From IMG/VR virus record IMGVR_UViG_3300023192_001275, positions 1 to 23,002 of that record: 23,002 bases of DNA; one strand, given 5' to 3'. Of the stretch, positions 1 through 23,002 are shown one piece after another. Source of the stretch: a virus. The notes beneath the pieces were generated by a model. It was not told the DNA's origin. It searched no databases and worked only from the letters and a program-made list of their open reading frames with translations. Every line of letters starts with the position of its first letter. Position 1 is the first letter of the stretch. The position numbers and the translations under genes were made by a program.

Positions 1-1
1 G

Positions 2-148
2 GTTATTAACGATGCACCAGACTACCCACTGATTTGGATTACAAACAATGTCCCATACATCGAAAGATTAGAACATGGTCATAGTGGACAAGCACCGACA
101 GGTATGGCACAAAACACAATAAACGAGATGGATGTTATTTTCACATGA
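2..148 (+). CDS. HK97 gp10-like neck/tail-completion protein (3' end only)
   Basis: The window opens inside this gene; 48 codons are visible before the TGA at 146-148. The visible tail includes NNVPYIERLEHGHSGQAPTGM, which matches the C-terminal signature of HK97 gp10-type proteins (an 'NN.PYa..LE.G.S.QAP.GM' pattern). That family acts at the head-tail junction during siphovirus assembly. The stop overlaps the ATG of the next gene as ATGA, implying translational coupling. The next genes are tail terminator and tail tube, the usual neighbours. The start and N-terminal domain lie outside the window, so length cannot be judged. The family call rests on the short motif and on gene order. Confidence 0.75.
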   Translation, partial: VINDAPDYPLIWITNNVPYIERLEHGHSGQAPTGMAQNTINEMDVIFT

Positions 149-576
149 GTGTAGTAAAAAGCCATCAAAAACTTCACGATGTTGTCAGAAAGAGATTTGC
201 TGATGAGTTTGGCGATGAATATCTCACTGCCTATGACAACGCTCCATTTGAACAACCCGATGACGAGATGTGGATTCGGTGGTCGGTTACTACTGGAGAT
301 TCTTGGCAAGCCTCTATCGGTGGTATAACAAACAGATATAGGCATTCAGGGGTAGCCATTGCCCAGATTTTCTCTGTACTTGGGAAAGGTACGAGAGAAG
401 CCTTAATCCTTGCCGATAGGATTGTAGAGAAGTTCCTTACAACAACAGACTCCGTTTCGGTGTCTGGGAACTCAGTTAATTTCAGAACACCGTCCATCAC
501 ACATGTTGGGAGAGCCGACAGCCAATGGTGGCAAATCAATGTCAACTGTCCGTATTATGCGGATGAAATCTCCTAG
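145..576 (+). CDS. Tail terminator-like protein (DUF4128 / lambda gpU-like)
   Basis: A 143-residue protein starting at an ATG that overlaps the previous stop. Residues about 45-95 read R-x-SGVAIAQIFSVLGKGTREALILADRIVEKF, the pattern of tail-terminator proteins: a strand ending in a 'G....qif.p.G.G' turn followed by a helix with 'A..lAd.i...f'. Tail terminators form a ring that caps the growing tube and joins it to the neck. Length is typical (130-150 residues). It lies between the neck protein and the tail tube gene, the standard location. I infer the role from motif plus order; sequence divergence in this family is high. Confidence 0.7.
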   Translation: MSVVKSHQKLHDVVRKRFADEFGDEYLTAYDNAPFEQPDDEMWIRWSVTTGDSWQASIGGITNRYRHSGVAIAQIFSVLGKGTREALILADRIVEKFLTTTDSVSVSGNSVNFRTPSITHVGRADSQWWQINVNCPYYADEIS

Positions 577-593
577 AAAATGAGGAAAATAAA

Positions 594-1787
594 ATGAGTG
601 ATAGTAATCGAGTACAATTAGGATACAAAAAAGAAACTGGGGGTTATGCGATTTCTCCAACTGGGGAGTATGCCGCACTTCGTATAACAGGCGAGTCTCT
701 ACATCAAGAGACTTCCACAATTACATCTGCTGAAATCCGTAGTGATAGACAAATATCCGATGTTGTCAGGTCAAACTTAAATGCCGCAGGTGATACAAAC
801 TGGGAGTTGTCTTACAACTTTCTAGATTTATTAGAATCTGCATTGATGTCAAATTCAACTTGGGCGGGCGCAGAAGTAAGTGGTGCAATTAACTGCACAG
901 CCGATTCTTCAGGACAAACATTGACTACAACAACTGGGAGTGATACATTCGATGACTTTGAAGTAGGGCAGTGGGTTAAGGTAACGGGTTTTGTGACTAA
1001 TGAAGTAAACAATGGTTACTTCAAAGTCAAAACCGTAGCCTCGTTGGTGCTTACTGTTGAGGGTAATTCGCTTATTAGTGAGGTTGTTTCAGGTACTACT
1101 GTTAATATCAACCAAGGTGGTCAGATTCTAAATGGTGTATTGCAGACTCATTACACCATACAACGGAAATATCAAGACCATTCGGGTACTGGTGCAGTAG
1201 CACTCTACGCGGGGATGATGATTGACAGCATGACACTTTCAGCAACCACGGAAGCAGTTGTTACTGGTTCATTCTCTTGGCTAGGTAAAAAAGAATTGTC
1301 AGCATCATCAATAACAGGAACTTTTGCCGACCCGAACACTGAAGATGTTATGAACTCTGTTGAAGATGTTGCGGGTGTACAAGAAGGTAGATTAGGCACA
1401 GCAACTGCTTACGATGCACAAACAATTACAGCGTTCTCGTTTAGTCTTGGAAATAACTTGCGACCTAGACTTGAAATCGGAACACTGGGTGCAATCTCAA
1501 TCGGTACTGGTACTTGCAATGTATCGGGTACATTCCAACGATACTACGAAGATGCTTCTATGATTGACAAGTATCTCGACTTTGAGGACTCATCTCTTGC
1601 GATTGCATTCAACGATGCAGACGGCAATGCCTTTGTTCTTGACTTCCCTAAAATCGTATACACATCTGCACAACGAGTTGCGGGTGGTCAAAACCAAGAC
1701 ATCATTTGTGATATGGCTTGGGAAGCAATCGCTGATGACACCGAAGACATCACAATCAGAATATCGAAATGGACAGACGGTGTTTAA
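594..1787 (+). CDS. Major tail tube protein (phage tail tube 2-like family)
   Basis: A 397-residue protein beginning 17 bases after the terminator gene, with a good ribosome site (gaggaaaataaa before ATG). The N-terminal 80 residues contain an ITSAEIRSDRQISDVVRSNLNAAGDTNWELSYN segment, characteristic of the Phage_tube_2-type tail tube family ('eirsdRq.sd...g...a.G.i..els'). Residues about 90-180 look like an inserted beta domain. The product would form the hexameric rings of the tail tube. At nearly 400 residues it is longer than minimal tube proteins (about 200), consistent with a decorated tube. A strong hairpin follows, as is common after a highly expressed structural gene. Confidence 0.85.
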   Translation: MSDSNRVQLGYKKETGGYAISPTGEYAALRITGESLHQETSTITSAEIRSDRQISDVVRSNLNAAGDTNWELSYNFLDLLESALMSNSTWAGAEVSGAINCTADSSGQTLTTTTGSDTFDDFEVGQWVKVTGFVTNEVNNGYFKVKTVASLVLTVEGNSLISEVVSGTTVNINQGGQILNGVLQTHYTIQRKYQDHSGTGAVALYAGMMIDSMTLSATTEAVVTGSFSWLGKKELSASSITGTFADPNTEDVMNSVEDVAGVQEGRLGTATAYDAQTITAFSFSLGNNLRPRLEIGTLGAISIGTGTCNVSGTFQRYYEDASMIDKYLDFEDSSLAIAFNDADGNAFVLDFPKIVYTSAQRVAGGQNQDIICDMAWEAIADDTEDITIRISKWTDGV

Positions 1788-1807
1788 CATAATTTGACAA
1801 CCAAGAG

Positions 1808-1830
1808 CCTCGTCACACAGGGTGGCGAGG
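1808..1830 (+). terminator. Strong hairpin after the tail tube gene (terminator or attenuator)
   Basis: CCTCGTCAC (1808-1816) pairs with GTGGCGAGG (1822-1830) around a 5-base loop: nine pairs, one of them G-U. The bases after it (tatttaac) are only weakly U-rich, so I read it as an attenuator or mRNA-stabilising hairpin rather than a full stop. It sits in the only real gap (76 bases) between tail tube and chaperone genes. It would favour tube transcript over downstream genes, matching the stoichiometry a tail needs. Confidence 0.65.
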
Positions 1831-1863
1831 TATTTAACCCAACCCTAGAAGAAGGATTACACA

Positions 1864-2334
1864 ATGGCGTTTAATATAGGAAAACTAAAATCAACCTCAG
1901 AAGGTGTCTGGGTTGATTGTGGGGCAGACCTCAGAATAAAGATTCTTCGTATGGGCAACCCCGCCTACGAAGAAGAAATCAGGAAACTCGCTAAACCGTT
2001 CATGCGACAAATGCGACTTGGGACAATGAATATCGAGGACATGGAAAACCTCGCAAAGAAAGCGACCGCACACAACATAATTCAAGGATGGGAAAACCTT
2101 GAGGACGAAGACGGAACACCGATTAAGTTCTCCAAGGATAAGGCTTTGGAACTGTTCGACAAGTATCCAGACTTTTATTCTATTGTCAAAGATGTGGCAT
2201 CGGAAGCAGAATTATTTAGACAAGATGACATGGAGGAAGGAGCAAAAAACTCCGAGGCTACTTGCGATTCCAACTCGAATGGGGAAAACACGAAAAGCAC
2301 CTCCTCGCCCAACAAAAAGCAGGAGTCCAAGTAG
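1864..2334 (+). CDS. Tail assembly chaperone, short form (gpG-like)
   Basis: A 156-residue acidic protein preceded by agaagaaggattacaca. It includes NIIQGWENLEDEDGTPIKFSKDKALELFDKYPDF (about residues 75-108), the pattern seen in siphovirus tail assembly chaperones ('..gw.nl.deDG.pi.fs.e.a..l....p'). These proteins bind the tape measure before the tube polymerises. The gene lies between tube and tape measure, as always for this family. After residue 129 the zero frame continues into a low-complexity Asn/Ser/Lys tail ending at 2334, which is the usual product when no frameshift happens. The longer form is described separately. Confidence 0.85.
   Translation: MAFNIGKLKSTSEGVWVDCGADLRIKILRMGNPAYEEEIRKLAKPFMRQMRLGTMNIEDMENLAKKATAHNIIQGWENLEDEDGTPIKFSKDKALELFDKYPDFYSIVKDVASEAELFRQDDMEEGAKNSEATCDSNSNGENTKSTSSPNKKQESK
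2232..2250 (+). promoter_or_regulatory. Programmed -1 frameshift site with upstream SD-like stimulator
   Basis: A_AAA_AAC occupies 2244-2250 and is in phase with the chaperone reading frame (codons AAA at 2245, AAC at 2248), so both tRNAs can re-pair one base back as AAA AAA. GGAGG at 2232-2236 and AAGGAG at 2237-2242 lie just upstream, where an anti-SD interaction can promote -1 slippage, as known for E. coli dnaX. Only weak hairpins are visible downstream (for example CGAG/CTCG around 2253-2278). Confidence 0.85.
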
Positions 2335-2633
2335 CCGCATTAGACAACGCACCTGAACTAGACGAATGGTTATATTGTTATTGGAAAGCATTTAATGAAC
2401 TAAACCCAACACGAAACATATCTGAAGCAGGTCCTTCTGGAATACTTGTATCTGAAATTGTTGCTTGGCTCGATTTGAATTGCATTCCAGACCCAGAAAG
2501 TAGATGTGAGTTTTTGTTTTACATCCGACAAATAGACATAGGGTTCCTTGCATATTCAAGTGAGAAACAACGAGAGCAACATGACAGACATAAACAAGAG
2601 ATGCAAAAAGCAAAATCAAAAGCGAGAAGATAA
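2250..2633 (+). CDS. Tail assembly chaperone extension (gpT-like), made by -1 frameshift from 1864
   Basis: This frame is open from 2229, just after a TGA at 2226-2228, to the TAA at 2631-2633. It has no credible start of its own: the first candidate is a TTG at 2262 with no ribosome site at the right distance. Read through the slippery site, the product joins residues 1-129 of the short form to 127 more (about 256 aa in all). The extension has a helical, Trp-rich stretch (LDEWLYCYWKAFNELNPTR), a middle segment with SEIVAWLDLNCI, and a basic, highly charged C-terminus (QREQHDRHKQEMQKAKSKARR). In lambda, the G-T fusion links the tape measure to tube subunits. The tape measure gene begins four bases later. 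Confidence 0.82.
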   Translation, partial: LRGYLRFQLEWGKHEKHLLAQQKAGVQVAALDNAPELDEWLYCYWKAFNELNPTRNISEAGPSGILVSEIVAWLDLNCIPDPESRCEFLFYIRQIDIGFLAYSSEKQREQHDRHKQEMQKAKSKARR

Positions 2634-2636
2634 CTA

Positions 2637-5600
2637 ATGGCTTCTGTACATTCGTTACGGGTGGGGATTGATGCTAGGGCGGCTGTTGCGGGGGCGGCTC
2701 AAGCCAGTGGTGCAATGGCTACTGTTGGTACTGCGGCTGTTACCGCAGGTAAAAAAGTTCAGTCTTTCGGTAATAATCTAAAATACTTGGCAGGTGGTCT
2801 TATTGGGTTGATGGTGATACGAGATATTATCAAGACTGTTGTTGACTTTGAAAAAACAATGAAAACTGTTGGTATAGTCACAGGGGAAACCACTAAAAAG
2901 TTACAAGAGATGTCGGTTGTTGCTAGGAGACTTGGTGCAACCACAAGATTCACAGCAACAGAAGCCGCAGAAGGTATGACCTTCTTGGCTCGTGCGGGAT
3001 TCAAAGCAGAACAAGTTATGAAAATGATTCCTCACACATTGAATCTTGCTACTGCGGCTGTCATTGACCTTGGTGCATCAAGTGACATGGTTGCAAATAC
3101 TATTCACCAATTTAGTTTAGAGGCAGGTGATGCAGAGCGAGTAGTTGATTCATTCTTGATTACCGCAAATAATGCAAACACAAATGTCTTGCAATTAGGT
3201 CAAGCGTTGCAGTACGCAGGTACATTCGCAGGTGCGTTGAGCGTTCCTCTTGAAGACACAAATGCCGCACTTGGTATCTTGGCTGACTCAGGAATCAAAG
3301 GCAGTATGGCAGGTACACAAATGCGTGGTGTATTTGCCGCACTCATTAAGCCAACAGAAAAAGCAGAGAAAGCACTTCGTGCGTTGGGGCTTTCTGTACA
3401 AGATGTCAATCCTGCAATCATGGATTTGGATGAAATATTCCAAAACTTTGCCGAAGCACAATCAACAATGACTGACAAGACAAAGTTTGCGGGTCTTATG
3501 CTCGACATCTTTTCAAGAAGACCAGTTGCCGCGGCTCTTGCTCTAGCCAAGATGAACGAGAAATTAACCGAGAGCATCCAAAGACAAAAAGATTTGGCAG
3601 GAGAAACCAGACGGGCGGCTCTTGCAATGGAAGACACAATGTTTGGTGCGTTGAAAGCGTTAAGGTCTGCAATGCAGGAAGCATGGTTGGCAACTGGGGA
3701 TGCGGGGTTCAGTGGTGCATTGCGGGTGTTGGTAGATTTGATGACAGGTGTTGTTAGAGTAATGGCGGGGATGAGAGACTCTGTTGAAAAATACAATACT
3801 CTTGCAAATGTACTTGCGTTGACAATGAAAATCTTAATAACTAGGTTTGTTGCACTCATGGCTCTCAAACTTATAGGAATGTTTTATGCACTTGCATTAG
3901 CCGTTGCACAAGCAATTGCAGGAATGCTAACTTTGAACGCTGTGATGGCTATGAATCCTGCTGTTGCACTCGCAACCGTAATTTCTATTGTTGTTGTTGC
4001 TTTCTATGAGATGGCAGATGGTGCAAGAGCCGCAGAGTCTGCACAAAAAGCGTTGAACTTGTCAATGGCTTCAGCAGTTGAATCTAGAGTGGCATACCAT
4101 GCCGCAGAAACTTATATTGAACAACTAAAATCTGCACAAGCACATCTCGACAATCTTACCGAAACAAGAAAAAAGTTTTCCGATACCAACAGACTTGTTG
4201 AAGATAATGCAGGTAACGTGGTGCAGAAGTCTGGTAGTTTTTTAGGCATGGGTTACCTCTGGAAAGAAACACTGGACGATACTAACCCACTAAAACTAAA
4301 GTACGACCGCATGAAAGAAGAACAGTTGGAGTTTATTGACATTTATCTAGCACACCAAACAGAATTTGTTGAAAAGTATGTGACAAAAATGGAAGAGTGG
4401 GAAGACAGGATGTTCTTACTTGACCCACGCGCAATTATTCAAATAAAAGAGGGTATGCCAGAGTATGAAGATTTGGCTGATTTAAGTGAGTTTGTGGATG
4501 GGTATCTAGTATTGATGAAAACACTTACGATGCCAGAACACCAAGAACTTGCAAGAAAGTTTGGTTCAGGAATTCTTCCTCAAGGTGATGAATTAGATGC
4601 GCTAATCAAAAAATTAGCACATATTCGTAAAGCAATAGACGAAGCAACAGGCAAAGAAACGGGATTGTTTGCAAGTGCAGGACCTTCTGAAGAAGCCATT
4701 AGAAAATGGGACGAGTTGGGAGTTTCAATAAAACACAATACAACAATTGTTGGTTTGCATGTAGAGGCTCAAAAAATGATTAACCGTGAGCGAAATATTG
4801 ACAACATGGCACTTGAAGCAGGATTGAAATTAGGTTCAGAAGAAGTCGAACAGTACAAAGAATCCGCAAACTTATTGTACCATCTTACCGAAATGTGGAA
4901 AGAACATTGGGCTAATAAAGAAAAAGCGAGAATAGAAACACAACGATTGGACGATGCAGAAAAAAAACTTCAAGAACGCCTATCAACTACCTATAAACAA
5001 ATGGTACAAGACCTCAAGTCTGAACGATATGAATTAGATGCAACAACACAGGAAATGAGAAGATACAACTATGAGCGAATGATAACCTCACAGTTAGAAG
5101 GAAGTGATAATGCAGAAGAACGTATCAAGTGGTTAATGGCAGAGCGTGATGCGATTGATAAGTTGAGAGAATCGACCGAGTTCTACGGTTTGAAAATGGT
5201 AGACATACAAACTGCTTTAGGTCAATCAATCACCAGTGCAGTCATGTCCGTTGTTGATGGTTCAGCGACAATGGTCGAAGCGTTGTCCAACGTAGTAATG
5301 ATGCTAATCGAAATGACTATCAGGGCGGTCATGTTCCAAGCAATCATGGGTTGGATGTCTGGTGGTGCAGGTAATGTGCCAACCGATGCAGGAATCCAAA
5401 CAGGACCTTTTATGGCGGCAAAAGGTGCAGTAATGTCTGGTGGAAGTCCAATAGCGTTCGCACAAGGTGGTATTGTCAGAAGCCCAACAATCTTCCCAAT
5501 GGCACAAGGCAGTCTGGGTTTGATGGGTGAAGCAGGAGCAGAAGCAATTATGCCTCTCGCAAGATTGCAGGATGGAAGTCTGGGGGTAAGAGCAGAAGGT

Positions 5601-5726
5601 TCTGGTGGAGTAACTGTCGTTGTAAACATGAACATTAACACTCCAAACGCAGACTCATTTAGAAAGTCACAGAAACAGATTACAAGGTCACTTAGCAAAG
5701 CAGTTCGCAGTTCAGCACTGAACTAA
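2637..5726 (+). CDS. Tail tape measure protein (TP901-type core)
   Basis: A 1029-residue protein. Residues about 75-290 match the phage tail tape measure core: ARRLGATTRFTATEAAEGM, FLARAGF, DSFLITANNANTNV, then LGILADSGIKGSMAGTQMRG. Residues about 400-458 are strongly hydrophobic and could form one or two membrane-crossing helices used during DNA ejection. The middle (about 640-880) is rich in charged helices and probably coiled coil. The C-terminus has the Gly-rich GGIVRSPTIFPMAQGSLGLMGEAGAEAIMPL motif seen in lambda-like and GTA-like tape measures. The protein sets tail length; using the usual about 0.15 nm per residue I would infer a tail near 150 nm. It starts four bases after the chaperone extension ends. 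Confidence 0.95.
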   Translation: MASVHSLRVGIDARAAVAGAAQASGAMATVGTAAVTAGKKVQSFGNNLKYLAGGLIGLMVIRDIIKTVVDFEKTMKTVGIVTGETTKKLQEMSVVARRLGATTRFTATEAAEGMTFLARAGFKAEQVMKMIPHTLNLATAAVIDLGASSDMVANTIHQFSLEAGDAERVVDSFLITANNANTNVLQLGQALQYAGTFAGALSVPLEDTNAALGILADSGIKGSMAGTQMRGVFAALIKPTEKAEKALRALGLSVQDVNPAIMDLDEIFQNFAEAQSTMTDKTKFAGLMLDIFSRRPVAAALALAKMNEKLTESIQRQKDLAGETRRAALAMEDTMFGALKALRSAMQEAWLATGDAGFSGALRVLVDLMTGVVRVMAGMRDSVEKYNTLANVLALTMKILITRFVALMALKLIGMFYALALAVAQAIAGMLTLNAVMAMNPAVALATVISIVVVAFYEMADGARAAESAQKALNLSMASAVESRVAYHAAETYIEQLKSAQAHLDNLTETRKKFSDTNRLVEDNAGNVVQKSGSFLGMGYLWKETLDDTNPLKLKYDRMKEEQLEFIDIYLAHQTEFVEKYVTKMEEWEDRMFLLDPRAIIQIKEGMPEYEDLADLSEFVDGYLVLMKTLTMPEHQELARKFGSGILPQGDELDALIKKLAHIRKAIDEATGKETGLFASAGPSEEAIRKWDELGVSIKHNTTIVGLHVEAQKMINRERNIDNMALEAGLKLGSEEVEQYKESANLLYHLTEMWKEHWANKEKARIETQRLDDAEKKLQERLSTTYKQMVQDLKSERYELDATTQEMRRYNYERMITSQLEGSDNAEERIKWLMAERDAIDKLRESTEFYGLKMVDIQTALGQSITSAVMSVVDGSATMVEALSNVVMMLIEMTIRAVMFQAIMGWMSGGAGNVPTDAGIQTGPFMAAKGAVMSGGSPIAFAQGGIVRSPTIFPMAQGSLGLMGEAGAEAIMPLARLQDGSLGVRAEGSGGVTVVVNMNINTPNADSFRKSQKQITRSLSKAVRSSALN

Positions 5727-5741
5727 TACGGAGATGGTTAG

Positions 5742-6782
5742 ATGTCATTTTATGAAGTCAGATTCCCAATAAACATTTCATACGGCTCATCAGGTGGTCC
5801 TTCTTTTTCTACAACCATTGTTGGTCTGGATGCGGGTGCAGAACAACGAGTCGCTCGTTGGAGCAAGGCAAGAAGAAAATATGATGTATCGTATGGATTA
5901 AAAACATACACTGACTTGCAGGATTTAATCGAGTTCTACATGTCGGTGAAGGGTGCGGCATACGGTTTCCGTTACAAAGATTGGATTGACTTTACAACTG
6001 CAACTGATGGTCGTTCTACACACACCTTTTCGGATGTCATAGTTGCCACAGCATCACAAGCATACCTCTCTGGTGAACTAACCGTTCAACTTAAAAAAAG
6101 ATACTCTGTAACAGATGGGACAACCACAACCACCGTTGTTACTAGAGAACTGAACAAACCAGTTTCAGGGACGGTTGTTATGGGGGAGAAACCCGAAGGG
6201 ACAATAACAGAGATTAACAGTAGTGATTTTGAGGTTGATTTTTCAACTGGAATTGTCACAATAAATAAAGCGGTTGCTGAAAACACATCAATTTATTGTG
6301 GGTGTGAGTTCGATGTTCCTGTTCGGTTCACAAAAAGCATGGATGATTTACTTAGTGTTAGTCTTGAGTCTTTTGACTCAGGCACAACAGACTCTATTGA
6401 GTTGGTGGAGTTACTTGACCACAGCGAACACCTTGATGAATACTTTTACGGTGGCTCTTCCCAACTCATTTTGTCAGGTGATACAACTTTGAGTGTGACC
6501 AATGGGCGAGTGATTTCTTATGACCCGTCTTCTAATGGTCACATTGTAACTTTGCAACCGCCTACCGACTTATCAAATGGTGGTCCTTATTTCTATATCG
6601 TTAACCAATCACCATCATTTGAAGGATTCACAATCAACTTTTCAGATTCGGGTGACCACGAAGGAACTAGCACCATATTGACTTACAACCTTCCTGCAAA
6701 CACATCAGCATCATTCTGGGTTTTTGAACACGGAGACACATCAAAACAGTGGAAAGCGTGGCAGAGCCACTTGGGAACGTAA
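5742..6782 (+). CDS. Distal tail protein, DUF2460/TIGR02217 (GTA gp12-like) with C-terminal extension
   Basis: A 346-residue protein with SD ggagat before its ATG. Residues 1 to about 215 match the DUF2460 family: FPINISYGSSGGPSF near the start, then RVARWSKARRKYDVSYGLKT, AAYGFRYKDWIDF and FDVPVRF. In GTAs and related phages this protein forms the ring at the tube end to which the hub attaches. DUF2460 proteins are usually about 210 residues, so the last 130 are extra. That part (GGSSQLILSGDTTLSV to YFYIVNQSP to FWVFEHGD) reads as a beta-sandwich decoration of the kind found on tail proteins, possibly glycan-binding. Its TAA shares a base with the next ATG. Confidence 0.88.
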   Translation: MSFYEVRFPINISYGSSGGPSFSTTIVGLDAGAEQRVARWSKARRKYDVSYGLKTYTDLQDLIEFYMSVKGAAYGFRYKDWIDFTTATDGRSTHTFSDVIVATASQAYLSGELTVQLKKRYSVTDGTTTTTVVTRELNKPVSGTVVMGEKPEGTITEINSSDFEVDFSTGIVTINKAVAENTSIYCGCEFDVPVRFTKSMDDLLSVSLESFDSGTTDSIELVELLDHSEHLDEYFYGGSSQLILSGDTTLSVTNGRVISYDPSSNGHIVTLQPPTDLSNGGPYFYIVNQSPSFEGFTINFSDSGDHEGTSTILTYNLPANTSASFWVFEHGDTSKQWKAWQSHLGT

Positions 6783-7351
6783 TGACAATAAAATCATCAA
6801 AATTTTATGGTGGCTACAAAAAAGTAACCGTTGACGCAATTTACAGACTATCCGCACTACATCCGAGATTCATTCGGTTTATTTGTATGCACCATGAAGA
6901 TTCTATTTATTTACCCAAAGCAAATGAGTTACCTATCCATACGGGTGGTGCATCCTTTACCTTATGGAATGAAGGCTACCACAACTGCATAATAAAAGAT
7001 TACAGTGGTAATGTTGTTGGATGTCTACAAGGAACTGCAAGAGAACCAACGGAATTGAGTCGTTGGACTAGCGTACATTTAATAAAAGCAGACAAAGCAT
7101 CGGGAACGTGGTGGATAGATTCGGTAGAGTGTGTTGACCCACCAGACTTAACGGTCACTGAGACATGGTGTGACACTGCGTCCAGTTCATTTTCTAGTTC
7201 TGGAAGTTGGGGTGGTTCATCTGGGGATGGACATAGCAGTGGTTACAGCCATCATTTAAGTATTGAATACCCTAACCCACTTCCTTTTCCACGACACCCA
7301 GAAATACCAATACCACAACGAAGACCCAAACGGGCGGCTGAAGGGATTTGA
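6782..7351 (+). CDS. Unrecognised tail-module protein with Ser/Gly linker and Pro-rich end
   Basis: I chose the ATG at 6782 (189 residues), overlapping the previous stop by one base. An upstream in-frame GTG at 6749 would overlap the previous gene by 34 bases and has no clear ribosome site. Residues 1 to about 130 look globular, with aromatic residues and ALHPRFIRFICMHHEDSIYLP near the start. Residues about 133-158 are a Ser/Gly/His-rich linker and the last 28 are Pro/Arg-rich (YPNPLPFPRHPEIPIPQRRP). I do not recognise the family. Its place between distal tail protein and glycosyltransferase, within a tightly packed operon, suggests a small structural or tail-tip accessory protein. Confidence 0.7.
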   Translation: MTIKSSKFYGGYKKVTVDAIYRLSALHPRFIRFICMHHEDSIYLPKANELPIHTGGASFTLWNEGYHNCIIKDYSGNVVGCLQGTAREPTELSRWTSVHLIKADKASGTWWIDSVECVDPPDLTVTETWCDTASSSFSSSGSWGGSSGDGHSSGYSHHLSIEYPNPLPFPRHPEIPIPQRRPKRAAEGI

Positions 7352-7355
7352 ATAA

Positions 7356-8432
7356 ATGGAGTTTACTTATTCGGTTGTAATACCAACTCACAACGAGATT
7401 CGTGATTTAGAAGTTACGGTTGCTATGGTTTGGGCAAGTGAACCAAGACCACACGAAATTATTGTGGTTGACGATTGTGGTGATGACGATGTTGAACAAA
7501 GACTAAGTTCTTTTCCTGATGTCAAAGTAGTTAGAACACCAGAACAACTAGGGTCTCAACCCGCTAAAAGGTTCGGAGCAGAAATCGCAACAGGCGATGT
7601 GATAGTCACTTTGGACTCACACATGCGAATGCCGTTGGATTGGTTGCAACAAGCCGATGATGCAATAGAACTACACCCGAATGCTATATTCTGTTGTGCT
7701 TGTAGAAACTTTAGTGGTGATTGGTTGGGGTGTGGTGGAAAGTTTACACGAACCTCAACAAAAAAGCGTGGAGACATTTTCTTAGGTAGGGGTTGGTTAG
7801 ACCGTGGTGATGTAGACACAATCGACCGATGTCCGTGTTTGCTTGGTGGTTGCTATTTCTACCCACGACATATTTGGACTTCTCTACAAGGGATAAACCC
7901 AAACATGCAAGGGTGGGGGTACGGGGAGCAAGACATGTCGATTCGTTCTTGGTTGTTTGGTTTTGAGGTTCGCAGAATAAACGGACTGTGCATGCCCCAT
8001 CGTTTTCAAAGTGAGATACTTGATTCAAGTGGAAAAAGAAAAAGCAAGAAAGGAATAAACAACTTATCTAAGTGGCACAACCAATTCAACGGAATGGTTG
8101 TGAGTGCCACAGTGTTTGAAGATGGTGTGTTTGACCGATTGTACAGACCCTTCTACAAACAAATAGTTCCTGTTGATGCAGTGATTCAATTTGAAGAAAA
8201 CCTTGATGAGATAAACAAGTTTAGACATTTTGTCCAATCAACAAGGGTGTATTCAGATGATGAATTACAGGCTCTGTGTAATTTCAAGTTACCCACTCTT
8301 GCAAGACAACAGTCAATGGTGGATTTAATTTTGACAACCAAGAACGAAAAAAGCAAAGAACGAAGACGAACAACAAGACTAAAAAAATGCAAGTGTGGGG
8401 ATAATACATTAGAGGTTGCTCAAAAATGGTAG
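7356..8432 (+). CDS. Family 2 / GalNAc-transferase-like (GT-A fold) glycosyltransferase
   Basis: A 358-residue protein. It opens with a GT-A nucleotide-binding half: YSVVIPTHNE (5-14) and IIVVDDCGDDD (35-45). The metal site reads LDSHM with D87 and H89, the D-x-H form seen in polypeptide GalNAc-transferases rather than the usual DxD. GGCYFYPRHIW (164-174) and MQGWGYGEQDMSIRSW (184-199) match the acceptor/catalytic 'GG.f.i....f......m..WG.En.e.s.R.W' motif of that group, and H215 could be the third metal ligand. The C-terminal 140 residues are unassigned and end in a short CKCGD segment. No signal peptide or membrane segment is seen, so it should act in the cytoplasm. It is embedded among tail genes; the substrate is unknown. 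Confidence 0.88.
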   Translation: MEFTYSVVIPTHNEIRDLEVTVAMVWASEPRPHEIIVVDDCGDDDVEQRLSSFPDVKVVRTPEQLGSQPAKRFGAEIATGDVIVTLDSHMRMPLDWLQQADDAIELHPNAIFCCACRNFSGDWLGCGGKFTRTSTKKRGDIFLGRGWLDRGDVDTIDRCPCLLGGCYFYPRHIWTSLQGINPNMQGWGYGEQDMSIRSWLFGFEVRRINGLCMPHRFQSEILDSSGKRKSKKGINNLSKWHNQFNGMVVSATVFEDGVFDRLYRPFYKQIVPVDAVIQFEENLDEINKFRHFVQSTRVYSDDELQALCNFKLPTLARQQSMVDLILTTKNEKSKERRRTTRLKKCKCGDNTLEVAQKW

Positions 8433-9406
8433 TAATCCTAGATGCACAACTAAAATCCTTAAACTCCAATACCATACACCGCTATTGTCTTCTTTGGAAA
8501 ATTGACAGAGTTGACGGGGGTAGGTTTCGTTTCACAGACCACAACACAGACGTAACATTCCAAGGTAATACTTATGGTGCGGCTGTTGGTTTTGGCGTAT
8601 CTGCCACACAACGCGAGAGTGGACTAAACGAACAGAATAAAGAAGCCGCAGGTATCATTGTCCCTGAAGGCGTTGCAGGAATTACCAACGAAGAACTGCG
8701 TGGTGGTAAGTTTCGTAATGCCGTGGTGACTGAGTACATAGTAGATTGGCAATACCCTTGGTTGGGCGAGTTTTACAAAACCAAATATCTCATTGCCGAT
8801 ATGGCGTTTAATGGTTTCCATTGGAAAGCGGAACTTGTTGGACAAGCCAAATATGTCCGTATGCCTGTTGGAAAAATCTACAACCGTAATTGTAGACACA
8901 ATCTAGGACACAGCCACCATTACAAAGAAGGTGAAAATGTTGTAATGTTTGAATCAAGGTGTGGATTTGATTTAGATGGAAATATGTCTAGCCCAAACCT
9001 CCCCGCGCAATTAGAAAACCAAACAATTACATCAGTTGACAACCTAAGAAAAAAGTTCAGGGTAGCAATCACTTCAGCATACGTTGGAGAGACTTTCAGA
9101 TACGGATTGGTGGGGTTTGAAACTGGATTGAATGATGGATTGTGGTTTGAGATTGCGACTCAATCAGCAACAGGTGGTGGCAATGATGCGAAATTCATGT
9201 TGTTTGTTGATACTCCTTACAACATAAGTGATGGAAGTGGGGATGCAGGGGAGTGGAATGAAACAGCAGACCTAGTTACTCTCATAGTGGGTTGTGATAA
9301 AACTCTTGAAACCTGCAAAACCAAGTTCGGAAACAATTTGAATTATGGGGGCTACCCAGATATTGTCGGAGTTGACCGAGCAATTTTAATACCAGACACA
9401 CGTTAA
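8426..9406 (+). CDS. Tail hub protein, DUF2163 / phiJL001 Gp84-like (GTA gp13-like)
   Basis: A 326-residue protein overlapping the glycosyltransferase gene by 7 bases. The N-terminal half matches the phiJL001 Gp84 N-terminal family: CLLWKIDRVDGGRFRFTDHNTDVTFQGNTY, then ESGLNEQNKEAAGIIVPEGV. The C-terminal part has NRNCRHNLGHSHHYKEGENVVMFESRCGFDLDG, corresponding to the Cys-containing BR0599-type C-terminal domain ('C...lGd..C.vdl'). In GTA-like tails it forms the hub joining the distal ring to the tip. It lies between the distal tail protein and the NlpC/P60 peptidase, the usual order apart from the two inserted genes before it. Confidence 0.88.
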   Translation: MVVILDAQLKSLNSNTIHRYCLLWKIDRVDGGRFRFTDHNTDVTFQGNTYGAAVGFGVSATQRESGLNEQNKEAAGIIVPEGVAGITNEELRGGKFRNAVVTEYIVDWQYPWLGEFYKTKYLIADMAFNGFHWKAELVGQAKYVRMPVGKIYNRNCRHNLGHSHHYKEGENVVMFESRCGFDLDGNMSSPNLPAQLENQTITSVDNLRKKFRVAITSAYVGETFRYGLVGFETGLNDGLWFEIATQSATGGGNDAKFMLFVDTPYNISDGSGDAGEWNETADLVTLIVGCDKTLETCKTKFGNNLNYGGYPDIVGVDRAILIPDTR

Positions 9407-9407
9407 C

Positions 9408-9905
9408 ATGAAAAAAAAAGAACCCAAACTCAAACTTGTTCACCCACCAGAACTCTTACCCAGAATGGCAGTGGTAGAAGCCGCACGAAAATACATCGGT
9501 AACCCTTGGGTCTTTGGTGGTCGAAACAGATGTAGTGGATTGGACTGCATAGGGTTGTTAGTTCTCATTGCAGAAGACTTAGAGATTTCGCATTTGATGG
9601 GGGATTACGATTGGTCGGAATATCCACCACTAGACTTTCCACCACACGGACACCCAAACAGCATGGATAAAAGACTTGAAAAACCAATGATAAGGATTCC
9701 TTTTGAAGATGTTGGCATCGGAGATGTGGAAACTTATTGGATACGGGATAGGGGTGCTACTTGCCACTGTGCAATAATTTCCGATAAAGGTTTTATCCAC
9801 ACCCACCAAGGATGTAAACAAGTAATGGAAACAGTAAAGTCACCATTTTGGAATAGAAGACGAACAGGGGCGTTTCGCTATCCTAACATTGAGGATGGTG
9901 CATAA
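9408..9905 (+). CDS. NlpC/P60-family tail peptidase (phage cell-wall peptidase)
   Basis: A 165-residue protein. AARKYIGNPWVFGGRNRCSGLDCIGLL (25-51) carries the catalytic Cys (C47) in the 'G.DCiGl' motif. H120 in ATCHCAII is the expected catalytic His, and H131 or H133 (GFIHTH) could complete the triad. The family cleaves peptide cross-links of peptidoglycan; in GTA-like tails it sits at the tip and opens the cell wall locally during DNA entry. No signal peptide is present, as expected for a virion-borne enzyme. It begins 2 bases after the hub gene stop and its own stop overlaps the tail tip start (taATG), so the three are translationally coupled. Confidence 0.9.
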   Translation: MKKKEPKLKLVHPPELLPRMAVVEAARKYIGNPWVFGGRNRCSGLDCIGLLVLIAEDLEISHLMGDYDWSEYPPLDFPPHGHPNSMDKRLEKPMIRIPFEDVGIGDVETYWIRDRGATCHCAIISDKGFIHTHQGCKQVMETVKSPFWNRRRTGAFRYPNIEDGA

Positions 9906-12900: not shown

Positions 12901-13474
12901 CGAAAGTTCATCAGGTGTTGCAACTTTGAATTACGAACAAGAACATATCGGAGTACCTAGATACTATAAATTAGTTCCAAACGCAGGAGAACTAACAGAC
13001 AACGAAGCACTTTCAATCGAAGGTGGTGTGCGAAGAATAAAGCCGTTCCCTGTTGGTCGTGTTAATGGTTGGAAAGATGGTGGTTGGTATGTAGAGTTTA
13101 TGAGATGCGACAGGTCGTTTGATGCGAAGACTTTATTCTCGATATTCGCCACTCCAAATTCAGACACAGAAGTTGAAATTTACTATTGCAAGGTATACGG
13201 TAATATCAGTGCCGAGGGGGATACACTGTTAAGAACAATAACAATGGAAGCAAGTGAAAACGGTTCTGTTATCACCCAAACTGTTTTTGATGATAATGGA
13301 CACACTACGGCTGTTCCTTTTGTCTACTATCACAGTTCAGATTATCTTACTGACCTTATTGACGTAGGTCAAGGCGGTATTGCACAAGCCTCAATTAGCG
13401 TTGAGATATACAAAATAGGCGATACCTATGGTGTAACAGTGAAACAAAAAATAACAAACACAAGAACACACTAA
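9905..13474 (+). CDS. Central tail tip / host-specificity protein (GTA gp15- and J-like) with embedded Hint domain
   Basis: A 1189-residue protein. Residues 8-61 are a hydrophobic Gly/Ala-rich segment (glycine-zipper-like), as in other tip proteins. Residues 85-122 (EGSGITRAFGDQMRIAGMMI) and 276-310 (GGGGGGKSTTTWYTYSCDLVVATCEGPIWG) are two halves of the conserved N-terminal domain; a 150-residue Hint domain (126-275) splits them and is listed separately. YRGTAYVVFDDLELADFGNQLP (about 513-534) is the phage-tail_3 signature, and LTKLIRGRRGTDDFIATH (about 970-987) is typical of the C-terminal half of GTA gp15-type proteins. The protein closes the tube and contacts the receptor. Seven residues (VFSGFDD) come from a 22-base segment also found in the gene at 14140. 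Confidence 0.9.
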   Translation: MGSGSQWGMILGFGIGIGLAFMTGGTSLAFMGWLGTSAGFGAAMYGAAIGATIGGLAGGLISPTEFHGPDVQGPRLEELQLTGVSEGSGITRAFGDQMRIAGMMIAAGGLRETKHTTENPTMSGKSFVAGTPIKLASGQEIPIEDVRVGDLLTTAHHGWLSKLLGKDPQFRRKRVTSLQKGTATKAIKVCADFDNKDIKNVEFTCTPEHEVYGYKVDRKPHWFQAQGLKTGDALYTENGWVRVVSCDRFEINEPVYNLTVNDDHNYLANGALVHNGGGGGGKSTTTWYTYSCDLVVATCEGPIWGVSEMFMNGKTKYSKSIGYTNKVGDNVSSFTVYVRAEPIGTYSSGHVSWRYIANISAAGGDEPFKVWAAGMRITTSGSTDGNSGDWNGEDSRKIRNVDNTNYDYIEVEIGGSTSFTQYGEYPIYTYTHVFSGFDDTTTEHTNNNLVNSTPITFTSSGTKIYTATIAYSGKTANGIRVYIGDDGSFDLQIGNEIVGNDGGGIEHYHNTEPDSVLSQLNEDSPAYRGTAYVVFDDLELADFGNQLPQCNFRIDARPRETEIEGNTAEVTEYCTVGQVIDVLMIRSGRYKAEGVGGLFQTHDHFDSDQFQGDTTGIHDNRVRGYAVVGAKTTQSALSNLILRYDILISEAGGVLKFARRGQEGSGSVTEADLGAYTTPENSEQDPNFAISDQPDTGLPNEINISYADVNDDYQKASQKARRSLSGLPRVDTIDLPMSMLASEAQSVANRVLYQTWSQRQACAFKLPPSYITVDEADILTVTSGAEVYKVRVLEINRGVDYIHEVRGLITESEEAPYSGEGDDGDDDEPTIYYPPPMVTYAADAPALHPNGIETLGHYFWACTTEINQDYQGGSIFVSDNETVGYSEISNYPHEAMIVKVETAIADGPISFWDETTSIEIEVFSPVAGDAPSTTTDALVLSGGSNHLYIGGELIGFRYVTAVGGEPQKYTLTKLIRGRRGTDDFIATHINNEYGCIVSHESSSGVATLNYEQEHIGVPRYYKLVPNAGELTDNEALSIEGGVRRIKPFPVGRVNGWKDGGWYVEFMRCDRSFDAKTLFSIFATPNSDTEVEIYYCKVYGNISAEGDTLLRTITMEASENGSVITQTVFDDNGHTTAVPFVYYHSSDYLTDLIDVGQGGIAQASISVEIYKIGDTYGVTVKQKITNTRTH
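10280..10729 (+). other. Hint (intein-like, BIL type A-like) domain within the tail tip protein
   Basis: Residues 126-275 (150 aa) carry the Hint blocks in order. Block A is SFVAGTPIKLASGQEIPIED-VRVGD with Ser at position 1 where Cys is usual. Block B is FTCTPEHEVY with the TxxH motif (T206, H209). Block F is PVYNLTVNDDHNYLA, and block G is NGALVHN with the penultimate His 274 and terminal Asn 275. The +1 residue is Gly, not the Cys/Ser/Thr needed for standard splicing. There is no endonuclease insertion. Terminal HN with a non-nucleophile at +1 is the hallmark of type A bacterial intein-like domains. Removing it would leave SGK-GGGGGGKS, a loop like those of tip proteins without an insert. 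Confidence 0.9.
11200..11221 (+). repeat. 22-base repeat, copy 1 (in tail tip gene)
   Basis: This segment is identical over 22 bases to 14370-14391 and is read in the same frame in both genes (VFSGFDD). The flanking bases differ on both sides. Confidence 0.95.
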
Positions 13475-16358: not shown

Positions 16359-16386
16359 TAGGTTTCTTCTTCGCCTACTTTTCTTT
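16357..16386 (+). terminator. Terminator-like hairpin at the end of the tail operon
   Basis: AGTAGG (16357-16362) pairs with CCTACT (16374-16379) around an 11-base loop, followed by TTTTCTTT. It overlaps the stop codons of both the + strand gene (TAG 16356-16358) and the converging minus-strand gene. The T-rich tract is only on the + side, so it should stop transcription from the tail module rather than from the opposite strand. Confidence 0.6.
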
Positions 16387-16887
16387 GTTGTCAAAAAGAC
16401 CTAGGAAGTACGCACCCATTCCTATTGCATCCGCACCATCGAGACTTTTGTCGTTGGTAGGGTCGTAGGACGGGAACAACTTCTCAATCTTCTTGGCACG
16501 GACAGCCTTCGATAGACATCGAGGGCTGTCTAGTCTAGTCCACTTGGATGTGGAGACTGTGACCACTCGATAACCAAGGGCGGTGAGATATGCAATTATC
16601 ATCCCGACCGCCATGCCCAGAGTAATTAGACCTCTTGCCCAAGGTCTGTTCTGACCAGAAGGGACTTCGACTGCAATTGTCACTGTCCTATCTCCCTCCA
16701 TTTTTCCAAGGATACCTTCAAGGATGGTTTCAATGGCACTGCACATCATCAGGCATCTGTCCACTGGGTCACGAGAGGTGGGAACTTTAACCAGAGACCA
16801 ATCAAGGAGCGTGGTGTCCTCAAAGACAGCGATTCCACTCACTCGTGAGCCAACATCTATTGAAAAAAGAATGGGCTTAGACGGCAT
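16375..16887 (-). CDS. RuvC-like Holliday-junction endonuclease
   Basis: A 170-residue protein, the only clear minus-strand gene in the window, with AGGAG 8 bases before its ATG. It has the RuvC/RNase H-like layout: beta-hairpin LFSIDVGSRVSGIAVFE with D11, IAVEVPSGQ with E74, and SLDGADAIGMGAYFLG with D150 and D153, giving the expected four acidic residues. Length matches bacterial RuvC (about 170). The role would be to cut branched or replicating phage DNA, for resolution or packaging, in the cytoplasm. Three sampled 60-base stretches are 50-55% G+C against about 37-43% in sampled neighbours, and it lies between a terminator and a divergent promoter, so it looks like a separately acquired cassette. 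Annotation as a RuvC-like resolvase is secure; true specificity is not. Confidence 0.85.
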   Translation of the reverse strand: MPSKPILFSIDVGSRVSGIAVFEDTTLLDWSLVKVPTSRDPVDRCLMMCSAIETILEGILGKMEGDRTVTIAVEVPSGQNRPWARGLITLGMAVGMIIAYLTALGYRVVTVSTSKWTRLDSPRCLSKAVRAKKIEKLFPSYDPTNDKSLDGADAIGMGAYFLGLFDNKEK

Positions 16888-17582: not shown

Positions 17583-17606
17583 ACCTCAAGAAAGCAGGAA
17601 CGACCA

Positions 17607-18500: not shown

Positions 18501-18501
18501 A

Positions 18502-19060: not shown

Positions 19061-19076
19061 TTATGGTACACTTTCC

Positions 19077-19104: not shown

Positions 19105-19142
19105 ACGGGTCTTTACTCTAAACGCAAAGTGAGGTGCTTATA

Positions 19143-19589: not shown

Positions 19590-19618
19590 TAGAACTTTAG
19601 AAACAAGGAATCAGAATC

Positions 19619-20410
19619 ATGGCTAAGAAAAAAGAAACAGAACTCGCAACATCCGTTGATGCACCAATCGTTGTGCCTGATTGGATGCAACAAGAAGAAG
19701 TCAAAGGTGTAGAACAGGTTGGTGAACACATGACAACTCCACGTTTGGCAATCATCCAAGCAATGAGTGACCAAGACCGAAAAGAAACATTTGGTGAAGG
19801 TGGTGTTGCAATCATGCCAGACGGTGTAAAAGTCGCAGGTAAAGACGAAGAGTTCATCGCAATTCCTCTAGTCTTTTGGGTGACTTGGGAACAATGGAGT
19901 GACATCAACGATTCGGGGTCACCAATGATTGAAAACTCCACACAAGATTCAACTCACGAAATTGCAAAGAAAGCACGGAACAAAGACACACGAGAAGAAA
20001 TGTATGGAGAAGGATTCAAAAGACGATATGTTGAATCACTTAACTTCATAATGAAAATTGATTCTGGCGATGCAATGGGCGAACTCGCTACCATTTCATT
20101 CAGCGTTGGAGAACACCACACAGGTTCTCGCCTATGTGGCTTGCTCAAACGCAGACCTTGTTCCATTTTCGCAAATCGTATTGCTTTCAGAACTGCTCTT
20201 CGTCAACGCAACAACCGTTCATGGTATGGTTTCGATTTTGCTAACCCAGAAACAGATGCTATTATCCAAGACAAAGCAGTGTACGAAGAACTTGAAAAAG
20301 TTCACGACAGTCTTTCAGGTTTGGTCAATACCAACAAACTTGTTGTCAACCGAGAAGACATTGACACAAGAGATGAACTTAACTTGAACACAGAAACAAT
20401 ACCTATCTAA
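19619..20410 (+). CDS. Possible DNA-binding/replication accessory protein (263 aa)
   Basis: ATG at 19619 with AAGGAA upstream. The protein starts with a charged stretch (MAKKKETE) then TPRLAIIQAMSDQDRKETFGEGGVAIMPD and EEFIAIPLVFWVTWEQWSD. The pattern 'pRl.iiQ..S......g..G.......' followed by a 'fipl.f...w..w' strand is one I associate with uncharacterised phage proteins in DNA-replication modules, some suspected to bind single-stranded DNA. The acidic C-terminus (REDIDTRDELNLNTETIPI) would fit such a role. No catalytic motif is visible. The gene sits just before the helicase and primase. The role is inferred weakly from context. Confidence 0.55.
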   Translation: MAKKKETELATSVDAPIVVPDWMQQEEVKGVEQVGEHMTTPRLAIIQAMSDQDRKETFGEGGVAIMPDGVKVAGKDEEFIAIPLVFWVTWEQWSDINDSGSPMIENSTQDSTHEIAKKARNKDTREEMYGEGFKRRYVESLNFIMKIDSGDAMGELATISFSVGEHHTGSRLCGLLKRRPCSIFANRIAFRTALRQRNNRSWYGFDFANPETDAIIQDKAVYEELEKVHDSLSGLVNTNKLVVNREDIDTRDELNLNTETIPI

Positions 20411-20421
20411 TTTTCTCAAGT

Positions 20422-20489: not shown

Positions 20490-20528
20490 TCACAACCACA
20501 AGTATCAACACTCAAGGAGATACGCAAC

Positions 20529-20804
20529 ATGACACTCGACCCATTTGAACAAAACTCCATACATCTTATGAAGGAAGGTTACATCTTCGCAATGGCAAGA
20601 GTTCAAGATAATTGCGTAGACGGCATACCATCTTGCGTAATGCCGATGTGGATTAAAGAAGATGATTTGGATTCAGAAGATACTGTTCGTGCAATACTAG
20701 GTTCAGAGCCTAAGATTGGTGAACACCCTGAAGTTGTATTAAATAGACAAAAGATTGACCAGTTAGTTTGGTCGGACATCAAGGGCATACAACAATGCCA
20801 ATAA
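20529..20804 (+). CDS. Unrecognised small protein (91 aa) ahead of the helicase
   Basis: Start chosen at the ATG at 20529, with AAGGAGA 8 bases upstream, the strongest ribosome site in this half. A longer in-frame reading from 20436 would begin inside the intergenic stem-loop. The protein is acidic (IKEDDLDSEDTVRAILGSEPKIGEHPEVV) with no recognised motif. It overlaps the helicase start by 10 bases, so it is probably co-translated with it, and may be a helicase partner; that is inference only. Confidence 0.6.
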   Translation: MTLDPFEQNSIHLMKEGYIFAMARVQDNCVDGIPSCVMPMWIKEDDLDSEDTVRAILGSEPKIGEHPEVVLNRQKIDQLVWSDIKGIQQCQ

Positions 20805-22174
20805 CATTATTTGACCACCAAAAACAGGGCGTGGAGATTGCACGAAACAATCCTCGATTTGCTTTTTTCTGGCAATGTGGAACAGGTAAAACAATCACGC
20901 TTTTACAAGTCCAAAACGAACGACCAATGCGAACTCTGGTGGTTGCCGCCAAGTCAATAATCTGGTCAGCGTGGGAAAAAGATGCAAAACTAACAGACAC
21001 AGAAGTAAAAGTTGTCTACCACAAAAACAAAGCAAAACGAAAAGAACTCATAATGGAAAAGGGTGACCACATACTCGTTACGAACTACGAGCAGTTCAGG
21101 ATGAATGTAGATTTGTTCATTGAATCTGGTGTACGCAGAGTTATCTTCGATGAGTCTTCCAAAATCAAAAATAGAAAAGCCAAAGTATCACAAGCCGCAC
21201 ATAAAATGGCAGACACATGTAATGAGGTTTACTTGTTATCAGGAACACCATCTCCCAACTGTGCGACCGAACTCTGGTCTCAATTACGAACGCTAACACC
21301 AAGTGCATCTGGTTTGCAGTTTTACAAGTGGGCTTACCAGTGGTTCATGCCTGTAACGGAAAACATACGGGGTCGAAGTGTCATCGCACGGTGGATTCCC
21401 AAGGGAGATTTGACAACCAAGTTCAACGACTACCTGAGAAAGTGGACTTGGGCATTACGAAAAGAAGAATGCTTAGACCTACCTCCTCAGACAGATGTTA
21501 TAAGGCAAATTGAATTGTCCCCACAAGAGGCAAAAACCTATCGTCAAATAGTGGAAGAATTAAGATTGTGCTGTGATGCAAATGGTGGGATTGAAAAACC
21601 AATTAGAGCAGAAGCAGTGCTTATGAAACTCCGACAGGTGACAGGTGGGAATGTGAAAATTGACAACCAAGCGGTCGAAGTTGGTTCAACGAAACTCGAT
21701 ACATTGGTTGATGTCCTTGAAGAATTGGGTTCTGAACCCGCAATTATTTGGGCTGAGTTCACAGCAGACATTAACAGGATTGCAAGAAGGCTAACGAAGG
21801 AAGGGTACAGCGTTGGAATTATTGACGGTCGAACATCGAGCGATGCACAAATGTACATAGACAGGTTTGTAAAAGGTGAACTTGACAAGTTGATATTACA
21901 CCCGAAAGCCGCAGGTCACGGAACGGATGGATTGCAAAAGGTTTGTCAATATGCTATTTACTACGGGTTGAGTTTTTCAGCAGAAGAACACATGCAAAGT
22001 CGTGATAGACTGCACAGGTCAGGACAAAATAAGCCAGTTACTTATATTTACCTCATCGCCAAGGATTCGGTCGATGAATCACTGTTGTGGGTTGTTCGTA
22101 AAAAGTCCAACAAACAGCAAGCACTACTCAAGGAACTCAGATTACAAAAAAGAGGCAAGGATGACAACGAATGA
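20795..22174 (+). CDS. SNF2-family DNA helicase/translocase
   Basis: Start at the ATG at 20795 (459 residues), overlapping the previous gene. It contains the SNF2/superfamily 2 motifs: Q-motif region FDHQKQGVEIA near the start, Walker A FWQCGTGKTITLL (K32), Walker B as IFDESSKIKN (D119-E120), motif III LLSGTPSPN (149-), and in the C-terminal RecA domain the arginine-finger motif SRDRLHRSGQ (R403 to Q411). Such proteins use ATP to translocate on duplex DNA; small phage versions are usually in replication/recombination modules and may remodel forks or strip proteins. Length (about 460) matches phage SNF2-type helicases without extra domains. Its end overlaps the primase start by 14 bases. Confidence 0.92.
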   Translation: MPITLFDHQKQGVEIARNNPRFAFFWQCGTGKTITLLQVQNERPMRTLVVAAKSIIWSAWEKDAKLTDTEVKVVYHKNKAKRKELIMEKGDHILVTNYEQFRMNVDLFIESGVRRVIFDESSKIKNRKAKVSQAAHKMADTCNEVYLLSGTPSPNCATELWSQLRTLTPSASGLQFYKWAYQWFMPVTENIRGRSVIARWIPKGDLTTKFNDYLRKWTWALRKEECLDLPPQTDVIRQIELSPQEAKTYRQIVEELRLCCDANGGIEKPIRAEAVLMKLRQVTGGNVKIDNQAVEVGSTKLDTLVDVLEELGSEPAIIWAEFTADINRIARRLTKEGYSVGIIDGRTSSDAQMYIDRFVKGELDKLILHPKAAGHGTDGLQKVCQYAIYYGLSFSAEEHMQSRDRLHRSGQNKPVTYIYLIAKDSVDESLLWVVRKKSNKQQALLKELRLQKRGKDDNE

Positions 22175-22934
22175 AAATATCAATGAACCCACAACTAATC
22201 ACCCAGTATGTTTTGACTCTGTTCAAAAGCATATACAAGCCATTTTCAAAGATGGAGATTGGATTGAGTTTCGTGCATTGCGGAACAAATCCTCTAACCA
22301 CAAGGTACACACACTCTACCGACAAGCACCATTACTGGAGAACGACCAATCGTTAATCGAGTGGCTTGACTCACATAATTTGCCTAGTTGGGCTTTGTAT
22401 ATCGGAGCGAACCCAAGAACAAAGAACAAAGGTTCTGGGTCTTGCAACACAGCCACAGATGAAGATGTCAGTACATTCCGAACCTTGTTCGCAGATTTCG
22501 ATGATGCAACACCAGATGGTGCATTGCTACGAATCGAATCAGCAGGGCTTCCAGAACCAACTCTTTTGGTTTCATCAGGTAGAGCCACTGGAACACATGC
22601 ATACTGGCGATTTAACGAACCAATCAAAGACTCTGGGTTGTGGCGGTCGTTGCAAATTGCACTTATCCGATTAGTCAAATCCGACAAAGCAATCAAGAAC
22701 CCTAGCCGAATCATGCGGTTATGCGGAACTGACAACCACAAACGAAACGCACCATGCAGAATACTGAAGGTTGGTGGGACATTCCCTAAGTGGGACGAGT
22801 TGGGTCTTGAACCTGCTGAAGAGATTCAAACATTTCAACAGTATGACCCAGACCTCATGCCACAAGAAAAGAACTTGAACAACAAGACAATCTCTTTTCT
22901 GAACGAGCCAACCACTAGCGGGGGAAAGAAATAA
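22161..22934 (+). CDS. AEP/RepB-type DNA primase
   Basis: Start at the ATG at 22161 (257 residues), overlapping the helicase end; AGGCAAGG lies directly before it. An ATG-like reading from 22002 would be buried in the helicase. The sequence shows the archaeo-eukaryotic primase core as in RepB-type proteins: LFADFDD with D112 and D114 for metals, LLVSSGRATGTHAYWRF with H146 in the 'SG.G.HaYw' motif, and PSRIMRLCGTDNHK (181-194), matching the 'r.mRlpGT.N.K' motif. It makes primers for phage replication. The protein stops soon after the primase core (GGKK) and lacks a fused helicase domain. The bases after the stop continue as coding-like sequence in the +1 frame. Confidence 0.85.
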   Translation: MTTNENINEPTTNHPVCFDSVQKHIQAIFKDGDWIEFRALRNKSSNHKVHTLYRQAPLLENDQSLIEWLDSHNLPSWALYIGANPRTKNKGSGSCNTATDEDVSTFRTLFADFDDATPDGALLRIESAGLPEPTLLVSSGRATGTHAYWRFNEPIKDSGLWRSLQIALIRLVKSDKAIKNPSRIMRLCGTDNHKRNAPCRILKVGGTFPKWDELGLEPAEEIQTFQQYDPDLMPQEKNLNNKTISFLNEPTTSGGKK

Positions 22935-23002
22935 CAGGCTCGTTGCCGCATCGTTCGATTACAACGCAAACAACTTCCCAATCGAGCAAGCAATCAAAGA
23001 GT
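22935..23002 (+). other. Start of a further coding-like region with no visible start codon
   Basis: After the primase stop, the +1 frame (open since a TGA at 22900-22902) reads RLVAASFDYNANNFPIEQAIKE to the window end, with codon use like the neighbouring genes. It contains no ATG, GTG or TTG. The -1 frame is also open but gives a Ser/Thr/Gln-rich string less like the other proteins. Too short to name. Confidence 0.35.

Follow-up and report, generated by a model that had tools for sequence, protein, structure and literature searches.

Lineage-wide elimination of four tetranucleotides and many longer palindromic sites in an uncultured tailed phage

The sequence described here comes from an uncultured tailed dsDNA phage whose lineage has lost GATC, AGCT, GGCC and CCGG from its DNA together with a large set of longer, mainly palindromic, restriction enzyme sites. 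With a probability of about 92%, this pattern is the result of strong and continuing selection against Type II restriction, exerted by hosts that would jointly carry about 30 or more specificities. The window, i.e., the whole stretch of 23,002 bp that was analysed, is one complete IMG/VR record (IMGVR_UViG_3300023192_001275, positions 1-23,002) with a G+C content of 42%. Given that the record is classed as linear and has this length, it is probably a fragment of a longer genome. The lifestyle of the phage is probably non-temperate, and its habitat is probably marine, as we take the sample series of its relatives to be marine viromes; a literature search yielded no paper that mentions the sample numbers.

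In the window, a siphovirus tail module is followed by genes for a RuvC-like resolvase, a Pam3 gp34-like protein and an SNF2-type helicase, and by the first part of a primase-like gene. The tail module (594..9905, plus strand) contains minor tail protein, tape measure (2637-5726, plus strand), distal tail, and hydrolase-like genes as well as a glycosyltransferase (7356-8432, plus strand), and the avoidance holds in all of its genes. The tail-tip protein, which is GTA Rcc01698-like (9905..13474, plus strand), has an embedded HINT/intein-like segment at 10280-10730 (residues ~126-275). This segment begins with SFVAGTPI and ends with LVHN and then glycines, without the usual Cys/Ser/Thr afterwards; the arrangement is equal in a 58.6-kb relative, a matching start is present in a 36.9-kb relative, and the segment may be a bacterial-intein-like domain. 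The RuvC-like Holliday junction resolvase lies at 16375..16887 (minus strand), the Pam3 gp34-like protein, assigned by a family match, at 19619..20410 (plus strand), and the SNF2/DEAD-type helicase, which served as the marker for finding relatives, at 20768..22174 (plus strand; its start is probably 20801). The replication block consisting of the gp34-like gene, the helicase, and the primase-like gene (window 17027-22934, compared with L035 11306-16897) is inverted in orientation with respect to the resolvase and tail genes when the window is set against both relatives. The inversion may be genuine, or the assembly may have made a join near 16.9-17.0 kb.

The absence of the four tetramers, originally noticed by eye, is exact: a string search of both strands returned 0 copies of each, and they are the sole absentees among the 256 tetramers. 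The original prediction from base composition was roughly 80, 80, 40, and 40 copies; the computed values are 84 GATC, 84 AGCT, 46 GGCC, and 46 CCGG, and a maximal-order Markov model gives 81, 41, 26, and 34, respectively. Since open reading frames cover ~95% of the window, a codon null was chosen, in which synonymous codons are reshuffled while every protein and the codon usage are kept. The means of 200 such shuffles, one of the controls that the original prediction had proposed, were 71 GATC, 58 AGCT, 24 GGCC, and 29 CCGG (z = -10.5, -9.6, -5.5, and -6.5), and the lowest single shuffles still held 54, 46, 13, and 19 copies, respectively. Elimination was defined as an observed/expected ratio below 0.1 with more than 15 copies expected; the four tetramers, each with an expectation of 26-81 copies in the window, have none there and are likewise eliminated in its relatives. 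Codon use and base composition leave this depletion unexplained (codon-shuffle z from -5.5 to -15.7). Other palindromes behave as had been described: CATG, GTAC, TGCA, and CTAG are plentiful (67, 60, 156, and 46 copies), and GCGC and CGCG are reduced yet present (7/26 and 6/22, observed/expected). ACGT, which had been overlooked, is also reduced (15/49).

The avoidance is visible in the choice of codons and even of amino acids. Where the next codon begins with C, Asp is encoded by GAC in 44 of 44 cases, as predicted from a few examples, while elsewhere in the window GAT (258) outnumbers GAC (145). Similarly, Ile following a codon with final G is never ATC (0/85), and Ser of the AGY type preceding T is never AGC (0/19). 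The RuvC-like gene, with 49% GC, obeys the same rule, also in line with the earlier claim. At the protein level, the dipeptide Trp-Pro must be encoded by TGG-CCN and therefore always creates GGCC. It occurs 0 times against ~21 expected in three contigs (the window and the relatives of 36.9 and 58.6 kb), whereas Pro-Trp occurs 20 times; the protein sequence itself has therefore yielded to the avoidance.

The helicase search gave three related IMG/VR contigs, G1 (36.9 kb), G2 (23.6 kb), and G3 (58.6 kb). Since G2 matches part of G3 at 99.96% identity, only two of the relatives are distinct, with a helicase protein that is ~75% identical. In G1 all four tetramers are at 0; G3 contains 0 GATC (159 expected), 0 AGCT (138), 0 GGCC (98), and 3 CCGG (76). 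G1 and G3 differ at ~1,635 positions over 18.9 kb, and random placement of these changes would generate, with both directions counted, ~56 GATC, 58 AGCT, 34 GGCC, and 24 CCGG. Against this expectation, the whole G1 and G3 contigs contain none of the four tetramers except the three CCGG of G3. The avoidance is thus lineage-wide and has been maintained during recent divergence, with no new sites retained. Two more distant relatives from the same collection, L038 and L039, retain all four tetramers. In L038 (41% helicase identity), GATC and CCGG are normal and AGCT and GGCC only partly reduced, and some longer sites are missing (GDGCHC 0/71, TTCGAA 0/22, and CTGCAG 0/11, both-strand expectations). 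The simplest reading is that the loss of hexamers is older and that the tetramers were lost later. Searches with the tail-tip protein found no close relatives, and those with the tape-measure protein found distant relatives only, without the avoidance pattern. The 58.6-kb relative also encodes a 991-aa tail fibre (L034 3544-6519) with two CBM5/12 chitin/cellulose-type carbohydrate-binding modules, which are a possible hint to the host.

The original prediction was correct for the four tetramers and too narrow in scope, as many sites of 5-6 bp are also at or near zero. In the pooled set of the window, G1, and G3 (118.6 kb), 48 six-base palindromes have a core that is not among the four tetramers; 34 of these have less than 0.27 of the expected copies and 14 have none, a few of the expectations being small. 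Degenerate sites are eliminated as well, with observed/expected values of 0/154 for GDGCHC, 0/59 for YACGTR, 0/54 for CGWCG, 0/47 for CYCGRG, and 0/30 for GRCGYC. In the window, GDGCHC, CYCGRG, YACGTR, CGWCG, TTCGAA, CATATG, GTGCAC, CTGCAG, and GGTACC are also at zero. Some losses are confined to one branch: CCWGG (0/28), GCWGC (0/21), CTRYAG (0/15), and TTTAAA (0/8) are missing only on the window branch, and ACGT (1/72) is nearly eliminated in G1 only.

The cause originally suggested was that the phage had long been exposed to hosts carrying several restriction systems, and this is indeed the best-supported explanation, given that the avoidance is lineage-wide, is concentrated on palindromic Type II sites, spares palindromes that no listed enzyme cuts, and has been kept up during recent divergence. 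The word "several" understates the case: tallied from the lists of depleted sites, the pattern would need about 30 or more Type II specificities, and host enzymes, spread across the host pool, would be the agent. With enzyme sites taken from the Biopython REBASE list, the median observed/expected ratio is 0.33 for palindromic sites and 1.04 for asymmetric ones. Among the hexamers cut by listed enzymes, 28 of 36 fall below 0.3, whereas, in what is a post hoc control, all four testable hexamers without a listed enzyme (TAATTA, TATATA, TTGCAA, and ATATAT) are at or above expectation. Enzyme number and hexamer G+C are, however, correlated (rho 0.71), so that the test by enzyme counts loses force; the sparing of uncut hexamers supports the restriction reading without proving it. 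Further points in its favour are the missing Trp-Pro, the branch-specific eliminations, and two genes of G3, which encode an N6/N4 DNA methyltransferase (Type II-like) and an ArdC-type anti-restriction protein (L036 4441-5613 and 16288-17253). Conversely, a number of sites for which enzymes are known show no avoidance (GANTC, GTAC, CTAG, TTAA, CATG, GTATAC, and TGTACA), and four asymmetric motifs (CCAGC, GAGACC, GCAGGC, and CCGCTC) are depleted; both observations count against the reading.

The depletion of most six-base palindromes is also what would be expected if palindromes were avoided for structural reasons, as hairpins, cruciforms, or targets of a resolvase or transposase. This is very improbable, since TTGCAA, ATATAT, TATATA, TAATTA, TGTACA, and GTATAC remain at ~0.9 or more of expectation, TGCA, GTAC, CTAG, and TTAA are common, and related phages lack the pattern. 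Moreover, the elimination extends to members of degenerate sites that are not self-complementary, such as GAGCAC and CCCGAG, precisely as follows from GDGCHC and CYCGRG. Sequence-specific nucleases are known from some phages, and the phage could in principle be evading its own host-degrading enzymes and not those of the host. More than thirty specificities would require many nuclease genes, and no restriction-endonuclease-like gene was found among the proteins scanned, which included part of the G3 set; such an origin is accordingly highly unlikely. A mutation bias or the codon usage of phage or host would fit the unusual dinucleotide contexts and the G+C of 42%, but it has a negligible probability, as codon-preserving shuffles restore 24-71 copies per tetramer in the window, the counts are exactly zero and not just low, and Trp-Pro is missing. 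Finally, all sequences come from metagenome assemblies, but an artefact of preparation or assembly, such as a restriction digest before sequencing, can practically be dismissed, since contigs of several sample numbers agree, L038 and L039 in the same collection keep all four sites, and a digest cannot yield context-dependent codon choice or a missing dipeptide.

Beyond the palindromes, the most striking loss is that of the non-palindromic pentamer CCAGC/GCTGG, with 1 copy against ~120 expected in the three related contigs. The codon-shuffle expectations are 22, 41, and 57 for the window, G1, and G3, where 1, 0, and 0 copies are observed; the lone copy of the window lies at 10717..10721, with 23 expected on both strands. 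GAGACC is low in G1 and G3, and GCAGGC and CCGCTC are likewise low. CCAGC/GCTGG is found at normal numbers in most of the other loci compared. The first 50 kb of Staphylococcus phage K (L081) contain 0 copies against 17 expected, besides lacking GATC and GGCC, and the specificity may hence be widespread. No enzyme with the 5-bp site CCAGC is present in the Biopython REBASE list, and a literature search found no description of a restriction specificity for CCAGC. The most plausible guess is a specificity outside the list, of an asymmetric Type II or a Type III enzyme; an agent other than restriction could also act on GCTGG. A more tentative proposal, to which we give less credit than to its opposite, is that the genome is a negative image of the restriction repertoire of its hosts and reveals undescribed specificities, CCAGC/GCTGG in particular.

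The lineage is a new, extreme case of an already known phenomenon. The survey by Rusinov et al. 2018 has reported that avoidance concerns orthodox Type II palindromic sites, that it is stronger in non-temperate dsDNA phages, and that complete elimination occurs in about a tenth of genomes (PMC6286503). The contrast that the survey drew between orthodox Type II sites and those of other types is paralleled in the window lineage by that between palindromic and asymmetric sites, whereas the number of jointly eliminated sites is far above the usual one or two and some asymmetric motifs are lost in addition. The clear and closest precedent is represented by the HF1-group haloviruses (HF1, HF2, HRTV-5/7/8, Serpecor1, and Hardycor2), in which tetramers are at zero (CTAG and GATC, with AGCT in HRTV-7), 21 six-base palindromes are absent in all members and 20 more are rare, and most members carry a phage methyltransferase (PMC7230728). 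The two groups share tetramers at zero and a wide loss of hexamers, but the haloviruses are archaeal myoviruses with another gene set. The window does not belong among them: none of 50,697 phage records matches it at the nucleotide level, and it carries the gene set of siphoviruses infecting Proteobacteria.

On a single scale, which sets the limit at 0.1 of expectation for tetramers and for testable six-base palindromes alike, the window, G1, and G3 have 4, 5, and 4 tetramers and 59%, 70%, and 62% of the hexamers below that limit. HF2 scores 2 and 82%, thus losing fewer tetramers and more hexamers than the window lineage, Anabaena phage A-4L 2 and 46%, T7 1 and 38%, Staphylococcus phage K 2 and 19%, lambda 0 and 9%, and relatives from Manatee Spring 0 and 2-4%; the reference panel, which comprises about a dozen phages next to ~60 other loci, is small and partly picked for known avoidance, so that these figures are no ranking among all phages. 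None of 71 other loci of at least 5 kb that were compared exceeds two near-absent tetramers. A-4L and phage K resemble the window lineage in lacking GATC and GGCC; A-4L is also without GDGCHC, CYCGRG, TTCGAA, CATATG, and CTGCAG, and phage K without CCAGC. Both differ from it in keeping AGCT and CCGG, and their profile correlation with it is at most 0.43. By gene content, the nearest relatives are the uncultured Manatee Spring siphoviruses MW202657 and MW202621 and the IMG/VR contig L038 (terminase 48-56%, DNA polymerase 35%, helicase 41%). None of the three is without the four tetramers; L038 has part of the hexamer avoidance, whereas the Manatee phages show no avoidance.

The suggestion that the four sites could help to identify the host was not borne out: no host has been assigned, and the profile correlates weakly with the small reference phage set. 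Among 14 reference phages and loci outside the clade, the correlation peaks at 0.33-0.43 (Anabaena phage A-4L), which is too weak for an assignment. Several of the avoided sites are those of enzymes first found in cyanobacteria, and the Pam3 gp34 family match also raised the idea of a cyanobacterial host; this found no support, as the profiles of Prochlorococcus phage PSS2 and Microcystis phage Ma-LMM01 differ and the cultured phages closest in their genes have Proteobacteria as hosts. More distant annotated relatives are phages of Pseudomonas, Xanthomonas, Stenotrophomonas, Roseobacter, and Caulobacter. A helicase profile search of 84,980 genomes found no relative, and a terminase profile search of genomes gave moderate relatives (up to 55%) that indicate no one host (Methylobacterium, Gemmatimonadetes, Pseudoduganella, Desulfovibrio, and others). 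Several terminase relatives (L046, L048, L050, L054, L057, L060, and L064) lie in genomes, most of which are deltaproteobacterial MAGs. Many of these ~20-kb stretches have few or no copies of CTAG (e.g., 0/42), a depletion that the window lineage does not share.

In the restriction reading, every unmethylated site would represent a chance of cleavage at entry, and mutants with fewer sites, lost through synonymous changes or, at times, amino-acid changes, would survive better. Prolonged exposure to a shifting repertoire of host enzymes would then bring the counts to zero and hold them there. Avoidance has usually been reported for one or two sites, whereas here four tetramers and more than 30 longer sites have been purged together, across a whole phage lineage and at a measurable amino-acid cost. 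The losses can be put in temporal order, as some are shared by the lineage and others belong to a single branch, such as those of CCWGG and GCWGC in the window and that of ACGT in one relative. Such a genome may be read backwards as a list of the restriction systems that defend an uncultured host population, and it could predict unknown specificities such as CCAGC.
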